DNA of 34,702 nucleotides from Bacteroidales bacterium. GTDB lineage: Bacteria; Bacteroidota; Bacteroidia; Bacteroidales; Salinivirgaceae. A program made the translations under genes and the position numbers. How positions within the stretch are numbered: position 1 is the first letter of the stretch; each line of letters begins with the position of its first letter. The notes under the pieces are model-generated. The model did no database searches and was not told where the DNA came from. It worked only from the letters and a program-made list of their open reading frames with translations. Shown here one piece after another: positions 18,485 to 27,097 of the stretch. The stretch is from the NCBI GenBank assembly GCA_012519055.1, contig JAAYQU010000011.1:1-34702 (forward strand). The letters are read 5' to 3'.

Positions 18485-19228
18485 ATGAAAAAGAGATTTT
18501 TAAATTTTGGGCTACTTTTAGCCTTGGGGCTAACAACTGCCTTGTTTAATTCTTGTGGCAGAGATGATGACAATAACGGAGACACTATTGATAATGCTTC
18601 AAAGATTACAGCTACAAATGTAAACAATGGCTCTACTCAAATCAAAACAGTAAAAGCTATTGTTTTTTGGGAAAGTGGCAATAATTATGAAAGTGAAGCA
18701 ATTGCACAAGCACCTTATCAAAACAATGGTTTTACATTGGAACTTCCGGCAACACTACAAGACAAATACTTGGAAACGATTGATACGGATGATTTGGAAG
18801 GAATTTTCGTAAGCGATAAAAATTTCAAGTCGTGTTTTCTTGAAGACCTAAGAGGTTACAACGGAGATGATAATGTAATTGGCTATTTTTATTTGGAGGA
18901 AGATAATGAGAACTGGGAGCATTACACTTCTTGGATATATGTTGATAGAAATGTAACCATAAAAGGAGAAGTCGTGGATGACGAAGAACAAGGAAATTTT
19001 GATTTAACACTTAAAAAAGGTTGGAACATTGTGTATGAAAGTTACATTGAGATGGAAAATGGTATAGTTATGGATTCTTTTACAATTTCAAGCAAAAAAC
19101 CGTCAGGAGTATATTTTACTTGGAATTTTTATGATGATTATGACTGTAGTTCAACAAGCGTTGCATCAAAATCTGTTAAAAACTCAAAATCGTTCTTTTC
19201 AAAATTGAAAGAAAACAAAAAGAAATAA
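18485..19228 (+). CDS. Lipoprotein of unknown function, tandem copy 1
   Basis: A 247-residue lipoprotein. The signal peptide ends LFNSC with C24 as the acylated cysteine, followed by an Asp/Asn-rich linker (GRDDDNNGDT) of the kind that often accompanies lipoprotein surface exposure in the Bacteroidota. The mature part is beta-rich with alternating aromatic and acidic residues (GYNGDDNVIGYFYLEED, VDRNVTIKGEVVDD, LTLKKGWNIVYESY). I recognise the general type from Bacteroidota genomes but know no function. The C-terminus is lysine-rich. It is closely related to the next gene and shares a leader sequence with it. Confidence 0.85.
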   Translation: MKKRFLNFGLLLALGLTTALFNSCGRDDDNNGDTIDNASKITATNVNNGSTQIKTVKAIVFWESGNNYESEAIAQAPYQNNGFTLELPATLQDKYLETIDTDDLEGIFVSDKNFKSCFLEDLRGYNGDDNVIGYFYLEEDNENWEHYTSWIYVDRNVTIKGEVVDDEEQGNFDLTLKKGWNIVYESYIEMENGIVMDSFTISSKKPSGVYFTWNFYDDYDCSSTSVASKSVKNSKSFFSKLKENKKK

Positions 19229-19319
19229 TATTATGTTGTCGTCAATTTTTGCAGACAGTACTGCGAAAAAACGGAGAAGCCGAGAGCCGAAAGTGGAGGC
19301 AAATTTAATATTGAAAAAA

Positions 19320-20084
19320 ATGAAAAAGAAATTTTTAAATTTTGGACTACTTTTAGCCTTGGGATTGACAACTACCGTGTTAAATTCTTGCGACAAAGAT
19401 GATGACAATAACGGAAGCGCTAATAGTGATAACGCTTCAAAGATTACAGCTACAAATGTAGCCTGTAGCTCTACTCAAATCAAAACAGCAAAAGCTACTG
19501 CTTATTGGGAAAGTGGCGATGATTATAGTAGCGATGTAATTGCACAAGCACCTTATCAAAACAATGGTTTTATATTGGAACTTCCTGCAACACTAGGAGA
19601 CAAATACTTGTTTACGATTGACATGGATGACATGGAAGGAATTTACGTAAGCGAAAATAATTTCAAGTCGAGTTTTCCTGTAATCCTTAGAGGTTACAAC
19701 GGAGATGATAATGAAATTGGCTATTTTTATTTGGCGGAAATAAATTGGAGCTGGCACGAAACTTCTTGGATATTTGTTGATAGAGATGTAACCATAAAAG
19801 GAGAAAATGTTGACGAGATATATGGCTATAAATACATAGAAAAATATGATTTAACACTTAAAAAAGGTTGGAACATTATGTATAGCAATGATGAAGATAA
19901 GGCGGAAGGTTATAATATGTATATGCATGTATCTACATATTCAAGCAAAAAACCGTCAGAAGTAAATTATACTTGGTATTTTTATCATAATTGTTATGAC
20001 AATAGTTCAGCGAACGTTGTGTTAAAACCTGCTAAAAACTCAAAATTGTTTTCTTCAAAATTGAGAGGAAACAAAGGGAAATAA
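19320..20084 (+). CDS. Lipoprotein of unknown function, tandem copy 2
   Basis: A 254-residue lipoprotein and close paralogue of the previous gene, roughly two-thirds identical by eye. The lipobox is LNSC with C24. The same motifs occur (IAQAPYQNNGF, ILELPATLGDKYL, LRGYNGDDNEIGYFYL, LTLKKGWNIMY). The most divergent part is the loop after VTIKGENVDE, which is longer here. An in-frame ATG at 19233 would add 29 charged residues before the signal peptide, but these translate the duplicated leader. The ATG at 19320 matches the start of copy 1 and leaves a normal signal peptide, so it is preferred. Confidence 0.85.
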   Translation: MKKKFLNFGLLLALGLTTTVLNSCDKDDDNNGSANSDNASKITATNVACSSTQIKTAKATAYWESGDDYSSDVIAQAPYQNNGFILELPATLGDKYLFTIDMDDMEGIYVSENNFKSSFPVILRGYNGDDNEIGYFYLAEINWSWHETSWIFVDRDVTIKGENVDEIYGYKYIEKYDLTLKKGWNIMYSNDEDKAEGYNMYMHVSTYSSKKPSEVNYTWYFYHNCYDNSSANVVLKPAKNSKLFSSKLRGNKGK

Positions 20085-25394: not shown

Positions 25395-25420
25395 ACGGTC
25401 ACTGAATTTATCGAAGTGAC
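25395..25420. repeat. GGTCACT...AGTGAC inverted repeat, copy 2
   Basis: This matches 2967-2992 over 26 bp with a single change (G to A). Here GGTCACT and AGTGACC pair over 7 bp. It lies in the gap between the branching enzyme and the decarboxylase-like gene. Confidence 0.75.
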
Positions 25421-25461
25421 CATATAAAACACATTAAAACTTTTAACTCAATTTTTTTTTG

Positions 25462-25469
25462 TATTTTTG
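25462..25469 (+). promoter_or_regulatory. Candidate -7 element for the decarboxylase-like gene
   Basis: TATTTTTG fits TAnnTTTG, 23 nt before the ATG at 25493. The upstream side is a T-rich tract without a clear TTTG. Confidence 0.5.
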
Positions 25470-25492: not shown

Positions 25493-26521
25493 ATGCAAGG
25501 AATTATTTCATACAGTTGTCCGGCAAATATTTCGCTGATAAAAAACTTTGGGGGCTATCGTAAGCGCACTCAGGGGAACCCCTCTTTTAGCATGACATTG
25601 GATAAAGCGAAATCTGAAACAACAGTTAAATATACTCATAGCAAAGAGCAAAAATTCTCATTTACTGTTACTATCAATGGTGTAGAATCGGAATATTTAA
25701 AAAAGCGTATTTCGCATTGGTTTGAAAAAGTGGTCCCTGTTTTTCCATGGATTAACCAGACAAGTTTAGAAATTTCAGTAACAATCGAAGACTCATTAAT
25801 TCCTTTTGTTGGGATATACACAGTAATGTGCTCATTAACATTCTGTTTAAGCGTTATAGCCAATCATTTAGGGAAACTTGATGCACAACCACAACTTCAA
25901 ACTGTAAGCAGCATAGCACTGCTAGACTCTGAAAATGCGGCTCGCTCAACCTACGGCGGCTTTGTTGGATTAGGTAAAAATGCGGCTATATCTTGGTCAT
26001 CAGATAAATACGCCTCACAATATCAACGTGAAGCAATGATATATAGCAAACTGAACGACACTATATTAAGCTTTGACAACTCCTCACACAACCTTAGTGA
26101 GTTAAATCCAGAGGATTTATATAATCACCCGTATTTGGAATCTAGAATAAAACATGCACAAATCAACACCAATCAATTTTTACGAGCTTTAGACGACGGG
26201 CATTGGGATTTATTTGAACATATTGTCGAAAATGAAGCATTAACAATGTGTGCGCTATTTTTATCTTCTGGAACAAGCAAATTTTTGCCAAGCAGCAATC
26301 TTATAGAATGGGCACAATATATCCGTGACAAACGTGAAGAGATTGAGTGTCCTGTTACATTTACTTTCGATCGTGAACTACGTTTACACCTTATCTATCC
26401 ACCGATAGCCAAAGAAAAAGTAATCAAACTTTTAGAAGAATCTCCATTAACTTACGATAAATTATTGCACGATAACGTGGGTAAGGGACCGAAAATGCTG
26501 AAGGACAGTTTTGAACAATAA
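25493..26521 (+). CDS. Divergent diphosphomevalonate decarboxylase-like protein (GHMP superfamily)
   Basis: A 342-residue protein with the layout of mevalonate-5-diphosphate decarboxylase. The N-terminal SCPANISLIKNFGG (7-21) corresponds to the family's CPxNIALxKYWGK, NPSFSMTL (29-36) to NxSLSxTL, and AARSTYGGFVGLG to the CRSxxGGF segment. The C-terminal GKGPKML also resembles relatives. However, the GHMP phosphate loop (PxxxGLASSA) is replaced by P104-FVGIYTVMCS-114, and the DAGPN segment near the catalytic Asp reads FTFD293RELR. It may therefore have lost or changed its ATP-dependent decarboxylase activity, or may be a structural paralogue. No other mevalonate-pathway gene is in the window. 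The reading frame is intact and the length is normal. Confidence 0.75.
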   Translation: MQGIISYSCPANISLIKNFGGYRKRTQGNPSFSMTLDKAKSETTVKYTHSKEQKFSFTVTINGVESEYLKKRISHWFEKVVPVFPWINQTSLEISVTIEDSLIPFVGIYTVMCSLTFCLSVIANHLGKLDAQPQLQTVSSIALLDSENAARSTYGGFVGLGKNAAISWSSDKYASQYQREAMIYSKLNDTILSFDNSSHNLSELNPEDLYNHPYLESRIKHAQINTNQFLRALDDGHWDLFEHIVENEALTMCALFLSSGTSKFLPSSNLIEWAQYIRDKREEIECPVTFTFDRELRLHLIYPPIAKEKVIKLLEESPLTYDKLLHDNVGKGPKMLKDSFEQ

Positions 26522-26550: not shown

Positions 26551-26552
26551 TG

Positions 26553-26638
26553 TGCCCCGGACCGGAATCGAACCGGTACGAGCTTTTCGGCTCACAGGAT
26601 TTTAAGTCCTGCGTGTCTACCAATTCCACCACCAGGGC
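26553..26638 (-). tRNA. tRNA-Leu (TAA)
   Basis: An 86-nt type II tRNA on the minus strand. The acceptor stem is GCCCTGG/CCGGGGC with discriminator A. The anticodon arm is CAGGA-CTTAAAA-TCCTG (anticodon TAA), a long variable arm is built on GAGCCGAAAAGCTC, and the T arm carries GGTTCGATTCC. CCA is not encoded. It lies 25 bp after tRNA-Gly and shares its promoter. Confidence 0.94.
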
Positions 26639-26662
26639 TACATCTTAATTATTTTGTGTAGA

Positions 26663-26736
<74 letters not shown>

Positions 26737-27016: not shown

Positions 27017-27089
27017 GGTGCCATAGCTCAGTAGGTAGAGCACAGGACTGAAAATCCTGGTGTCCTTGGTTCGATCCCGAGTGGCACCA
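27017..27089 (+). tRNA. tRNA-Phe (GAA)
   Basis: A 73-nt cloverleaf. The acceptor stem is GGTGCCA/TGGCACC with discriminator A. The anticodon arm is CAGGA-CTGAAAA-TCCTG (anticodon GAA), and the T arm carries GGTTCGATCCC. CCA is not encoded. A terminator follows. Confidence 0.94.
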
Positions 27090-27097
27090 CTTCTTTT

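Follow-up and report, generated by a model that had tools for sequence, protein, structure and literature searches.

The window, by which we mean the whole 34,702 nt stretch of Salinivirgaceae DNA that was analyzed, contains a plus-strand ORF of 342 amino acids at 25493..26521 that starts with ATG and has an intact reading frame. A preliminary description had recognized in it a homolog of diphosphomevalonate decarboxylase (MVD), and the family segments on which it relied (CPANISLIK, NPSFSMTL, and AARSTYGGF) are all present in the translation. Based on the ORF, the Pfam and TIGR matches, and the predicted fold, we describe the product as an MVD-family protein with a remodeled active site. It scores 39.6 bits against Pfam MVD-like_N (cut-off 27) and 38.6 bits against TIGR01240 (mevDPdecarb), far under the curated cut-off of 171.35; the canonical protein of genome G003, from the sister genus, scores 179.8 bits with the latter model. 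The phosphomevalonate decarboxylase model MvaD (NF040704) yields 25.9 bits and does not reach its cut-off of 475. The best sequence match in the PDB is the MVD of Sulfolobus solfataricus (5gmd, E 6.3e-8).

Two further species of the same genus (G001 and G002; the genome of the window is G000) encode intact copies with 60% and 52% identity to the window protein, on contigs JAQVXQ010000013.1 (Salinivirgaceae bacterium STF2_13) and CALJOM010000011.1 (uncultured Bacteroidales), both from draft MAGs. The altered motifs described below reflect neither chance nor a sequencing error or frameshift, because both of these species share the loop start and the DREhR segment. A second MVD was searched for in the genome of the window, and none, canonical or otherwise, was found. 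Among genome contigs, a single-protein search returned no relative, and a search with the three-row alignment returned only the G001 and G002 genus members. Carriage by a virus or plasmid was rejected: no relative occurred among viral contigs, and the plasmid search gave one Bernardetia MVD (26.8%).

Upstream, the sequence TATTTTTG at 25462..25469 (plus strand), 31 bases before the ATG, is a TAnnTTTG box, the pattern of the −7 element of Bacteroidota. G001 has this box at −30 and G002 at −28, so that it is present in all three species despite their differing neighbors; its probability of occurring by chance between −36 and −24, estimated by shuffling each upstream 100 bases, is 0.008, 0.003, and 0.03. 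The promoter that had been called plausible is supported in part, by this box; the full promoter pattern is not matched, because TTTG is absent at the usual distance upstream of the box in G000. An alpha-amylase-family gene, which by reading looks branching-enzyme-like, precedes the MVD-like gene in G000 (by 141 bases) and G001 (by 820 bases), and a histidine kinase gene precedes it in G002. The neighbors therefore differ between the species and the context gives no function; with no operon conserved across the three, we rejected an assignment of function from neighboring genes. An inverted repeat, GGTCACT...AGTGACC, lies between the upstream and MVD-like genes at 25397-25421 and was noted by eye as a possible terminator. 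Directly after the MVD-like gene, tRNA-Leu and tRNA-Gly (minus strand) and tRNA-Phe (plus strand) lie at 26552-26736 and 27017-27090. Elsewhere in the window, 18485-19228 and 19233-20084 encode neighboring paralogous proteins with N-termini that by eye resemble those of lipoproteins, and with no Pfam match at E 1e-5.

Active-site residues and predicted fold

The preliminary description had reported PFVGIYTVMCS where PxxxGLASSA was expected. Alignment confirms this replacement of the GHMP phosphate loop at 25802..25834 (PHSxGIASSAS in relatives, plus strand as for the active-site features below) and adds that the loop is three residues shorter than theirs; its start reads PFVGIYT[VA]M in all three genus members. 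At 25919..25948, LLDSENAARS replaces RLGSGSAxRS, with Ser146 and Arg151 retained, the latter in 3/3 genus members and 80/80 canonical rows. The codon at 26087..26089 specifies His199, at a column that is Lys in 80/80 canonical rows (corresponding in the alignment to K187 of E. faecalis MDD) and that varies within the genus (H/A/I). At 26369..26383, DRELR stands in place of DAGPN. The reported exchange of this segment holds for AGPN; it does not extend to the Asp, which aligns with the catalytic Asp (Asp293) and is present in 3/3 genus members.

We defined as near-invariant the 62 columns in which at least 93% of the 80 canonical rows agree. In all three rows of the genus, 32 of these are lost and 25 kept, a number that is by itself no test for a retained pocket; the other 5 are mixed. 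Losses are dense between F102 and the SSA of the loop, where 8 of 10 near-invariant columns are gone. In window numbering they comprise most of the loop, Tyr18, Trp19, and Lys21 of KYWGK, Gly147 and Ser148 of SGS, Lys199, Ser203, Gly206-His207, and AGPN. Asn12, Lys17, Ser33, Ser146, Arg151, Glu248, Asp293, and His299 are among the residues kept. The new residues E147, N148, R294, E295, and R297 are invariant in the three species.

Residue numbers of E. faecalis MDD were matched to the window protein through alignments of other MVDs; by this route Arg151 is presumably R144 of that enzyme, and we take Asn12 to be a residue with a role in substrate binding. According to the report on E. faecalis MDD (PMC7414129), the loop serves ATP and S106 the metal; the diphosphate is assigned S191/R192 and K71, the carboxyl group of the substrate R144, and its 3′-hydroxyl D282, and K187 is catalytic. 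The pattern suggests that the side holding ATP, metal, and diphosphate has been lost and the carboxyl/hydroxyl end kept, although it is suggestive and not a statistical test. It lends no support to the idea, also raised in the preliminary description, of a different phosphorylated substrate: the residues that would hold ATP, metal, and diphosphate are the ones missing, and the Arg and Asp of the carboxylate/hydroxyl end are the ones retained.

The same residues raise the main rival to the interpretation developed below, namely that the protein is a new, ATP-independent enzyme in which Asp293, Arg151, and Asn12, together with the charged DREhR and SEN segments, would act on another hydroxy- or branched-chain carboxylate. 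Conservation of those three residues and Ser146 in 3/3 species, alongside the five invariant new residues, is what such an enzyme would display. We nevertheless regard it as unlikely: no conserved neighbor points to a substrate, and GHMP-fold enzymes are not known to us to function in the absence of a nucleotide.

An AlphaFold2 model of the window protein, computed from a 41-row alignment, has a mean pLDDT of 91.6 and a pTM of 0.90. All 50 rows listed by Foldseek are MVD-family entries, mevalonate 5-phosphate decarboxylase included (best E 7.5e-25). By VIA-align the predicted model matches solved MVD-family structures with Z scores of 34.1-30.2, with 317 residues aligned; mevalonate 3-kinase scores 28.2, mevalonate bisphosphate decarboxylase 26.8, and the other GHMP proteins among those listed at most 22.4. 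Because MVD-family structures lead both sets of matches, the predicted fold is that of an MVD over the whole length of the protein. Within this predicted fold, charged residues occupy the positions of the small AGPN and SGS residues. They would suit a pure scaffold or oligomer-surface protein, its old pocket filled by salt bridges between DREhR and E147/R151, and XOL-1, a GHMP-fold regulator with no detected ATP binding (PMC11349215), offers a precedent; of the readings weighed here, we hold this one to be the least probable.

Distribution of the altered gene and of isoprenoid pathway genes

Homologs were read in 112 Bacteroidales genomes, made up of the 111 genomes with a match out of 393 sampled, plus G005. 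The 111 ORF matches came down to 84 rows, each standing for one genome, once overlapping copies and L024, a 120-aa fragment from G043, had been taken out; 28 genomes were added to these. A recognizable loop and Asp-x-Gly core are present in 108 of the 112, counting as canonical the DAGPN variants DAGAA (L016), DTGPN (L084), DAGSN (L171), and DAGAN (L153, L158, L164) and the loop variants PHGAG (L159), GMASS (L160), and PHSDGVASTS (L114). The altered loop is accordingly uncommon, occurring in 4/112 genomes: all three sampled species from the genus of the window, and G034, of another family. All six genomes sampled from the window's family carry the gene, altered in G000-G002 and canonical in the sister genus (G003-G005).

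In the G034 homolog (row L023, family f30), the loop is replaced by CSRQSIRSMTAA and the DAGPN segment by DVHACLH. As in the window protein, neither the loop nor AGPN is retained, and its genome has Dxr but no HMG-CoA reductase; it differs in the replacement residues and in still lying beside Idi-2 and a GHMP kinase with an altered loop. At this locus (L034, G034:C18, 9176-11157), the GYDIA GHMP kinase and MVD homolog are adjacent, both with altered phosphate loops, near Idi-2. The kinase reads GFGNATT and EASNYDIA at sites where the other rows that extend this far show a GxG[ST]S loop and, ahead of the Asp, GS[GA]; it nevertheless exceeds its family cut-off (247.7 versus 225 bits). Within the family of G034, 43/71 genomes have a match, and the 19 other rows read are all canonical. 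The G034 tip is long (3.82). A tree that unites the window's genus and G034 in one clade is better by 1.78 log units (p-AU 0.511), although long branches may pull together. The G034 change is probably a separate event; because the one-clade tree is not rejected, a shared origin by transfer is also possible. The G034 copy could be either a relic or the product of a second repurposing.

Isoprenoid genes were also compared, across 60 genomes for HMG-CoA synthase and Dxr. HMG-CoA reductase is absent from G000, G001, G002, and G034 in profile searches with TIGR00533 and TIGR00532; the TIGR00532 search found it in all six other genomes that it covered, including the sister genus G003-G005, and recovered the reductase of G053 that TIGR00533 alone had missed. 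A divergent but complete mevalonate pathway in the window's genus was rejected on the absence of the reductase by both models. HMG-CoA synthase gave no match over cut-off in the 60 genomes, the sister genus included; because genomes with a canonical MVD also lack one, its absence does not set the window's genus apart. The matches to this model were mostly partial (18-54 bits) and would appear to be FabH-type proteins; another two, at 105-109 bits, came from genomes that have no MVD match. Dxr was found in 59/60 genomes, all three of the genus included (in G002 as a partial, sub-cut-off match where a contig ends); only G051 lacks it, and that genome has a canonical MVD. Idi-2 does not discriminate, because the partial matches of 20-27 bits in G000-G002 are of the same kind as those in G003-G005 and G053. 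No complete mevalonate pathway was thus found in the genus, and the MEP enzyme Dxr is present.

A mevalonate-kinase model matched a single 227-aa piece in G000 and nothing in G001 or G002. We rejected this match as a mevalonate kinase since it is closest to the heptose kinase HddA (302 bits to NF049969, cut-off 600). This bears on the reading in which the window protein has remained ATP-dependent and acts, despite its odd loop and on mevalonate supplied from outside, as an aberrant MVD or mevalonate kinase. The predicted MVD fold and the retained catalytic Asp would accord with such an activity, but with the phosphate loop and its serines, the Lys187 equivalent, Tyr18/Lys21, and AGPN all lost, we consider it very unlikely.

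Flanking genes were read at 57 loci (54 canonical plus those of G001, G002, and G034), short contigs included. Near the MVD gene we found HMG-CoA reductase at 44, a GYDIA-type GHMP kinase at 49, a second GHMP kinase at 50, and Idi-2 at 28. All 44 reductase-bearing loci are canonical, and 10 of the 54 canonical loci have no reductase close by; for five of these ten, the flanks were read over the full 17 kb. As had been noted for the window, no other mevalonate gene accompanies the MVD-like gene there, and HMG-CoA reductase, GHMP kinases, and Idi-2 are likewise missing beside it at the two other loci of the genus.

A side result concerns 14 of the 57 loci (L027, L028, L029, L030, L032, L036, L043, L083, L086, L088, L095, L098, L112, and L113), where the mevalonate genes (HMG-CoA reductase, two GHMP kinases, MVD, and usually Idi-2) adjoin genes for acyl-CoA dehydrogenase, carboxyltransferase, biotin carboxylase, and enoyl-CoA hydratase; the profile scan of neighbor proteins covered ten proteins, from L027, L042, and L034. 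Seven of these 14 genomes were among the 60, with Dxr in 7/7 and HMG-CoA synthase over cut-off in 0/7. It looks as though leucine degradation may feed mevalonate at these loci, and mevalonate genes beside leucine-degradation-like genes without a recognized HMG-CoA synthase may interest readers equally. A literature search combining the mevalonate pathway in Bacteroidetes or Bacteroidales with leucine found no paper, a review of bacterial isoprenoid pathways (PMC13001223) mentions neither "Bacteroid" nor "leucine", and the titles and abstract openings searched held nothing on the window protein. The mevalonate pathway is described in Elizabethkingia in PMC4026382.

Selection and the probable fate of the gene

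Pairwise comparisons among the three copies of the window's genus, the only species on which the selection and genus comparisons rest, gave pS of 0.75-0.81 (saturated) and pN of 0.25-0.33, with pN/pS of 0.33-0.41. These values are close to those of the canonical MVDs of the sister genus (pS 0.77-0.82, pN 0.25-0.29); the upstream alpha-amylase-family gene gave pS 0.89 and pN 0.19. The gene is under purifying selection, and at 52-60% identity a freely drifting gene would not have kept an open frame. In the tree, the stem of the genus measures 2.88 changes per column and the tips 0.30-0.50, the place of the stem being unsure and the bootstrap not settled; a quick tree gave 3.2 and 0.29-0.51. Rapid change followed by restraint on this branch fits the pattern expected from a change of function.

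Given purifying selection on the gene in all three species, it is unlikely to be dead. The loss of HMG-CoA reductase and of 32/62 near-invariant columns might suggest a decaying relic caught before stop codons had appeared, and the G034 copy, with its tip of 3.82 and the altered GHMP kinase beside it, could be one. For the window's genus we give this reading little credence, ranking it just below the ATP-using one, given three intact species with saturated synonymous sites, the pN/pS values above, and shared new residues.

The suggestion that the gene encodes a repurposed or pseudo-enzyme proved the best reading, with its motifs lost, its predicted fold kept, and purifying selection in three species. 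The protein is a conserved pathway orphan within one genus. We consider it probable that it is a former MVD, orphaned from its pathway and re-tooled into what is likely an ATP-independent binding protein, not a decarboxylase. From its sequence we infer that it would neither bind ATP nor have MVD activity and would have a ligand- or protein-binding role. The host genus would have lost the mevalonate pathway and would make isoprenoids by the MEP route. The stranded MVD would have kept its fold and the mevalonyl-end residues Arg151, Asp293, and probably Asn12 while losing AGPN, the catalytic Lys, and the loop for ATP and metal. New purifying selection would then have set in on the remodeled protein; its pocket re-tooled, it may now serve without ATP as a sensor, a regulator, or a scaffold. 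Against this stand the facts that the kept Asp and Arg could equally serve an enzyme, that the neighbors differ, that the comparison covers three species, two of them draft MAGs, and that 10/54 canonical loci also have no reductase nearby. More tentatively, and with considerable doubt on our part, orphan MVDs of Bacteroidales may have been re-tooled, perhaps twice, into ATP-free proteins with a mevalonyl-end pocket (e.g., sensors of branched-chain hydroxy acids) after loss of a leucine-linked mevalonate operon, with a fixed, selected function in the window's genus.

The gene would be a clear example from nature of an enzyme that survived the loss of its pathway, and it allows a before-and-after comparison, as the sister genus keeps HMG-CoA reductase and the canonical enzyme. 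Such orphans make transitions from enzyme to nonenzyme testable. On the strength of similarity, they are also liable to be annotated as diphosphomevalonate decarboxylase and so to become false evidence for an absent mevalonate pathway.

Comparison with known systems

With MVD (TIGR01240; E. faecalis MDD, 6e2t and 6e2u), the window protein shares the predicted fold, the catalytic Asp, and an Arg that aligns with the carboxylate-binding residue (PMC7414129). Unlike MVD, it lacks the phosphate loop, K187, and AGPN, falls under the family cut-off, and is encoded in a genome without HMG-CoA reductase. Mevalonate 3-kinase (Thermoplasma, 4rkp), which uses ATP, and mevalonate 3,5-bisphosphate decarboxylase (7t71) have an MVD-like fold with changed chemistry, as would be the case here; both match the window model more weakly than MVDs do, and the ATP loop is gone here. 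XOL-1 and Gal3p illustrate the use of the GHMP fold in regulation; they are eukaryotic, and the likeness is one of working only. The closest working analogy is XOL-1, a GHMP-fold regulator without detected ATP binding (PMC11349215).
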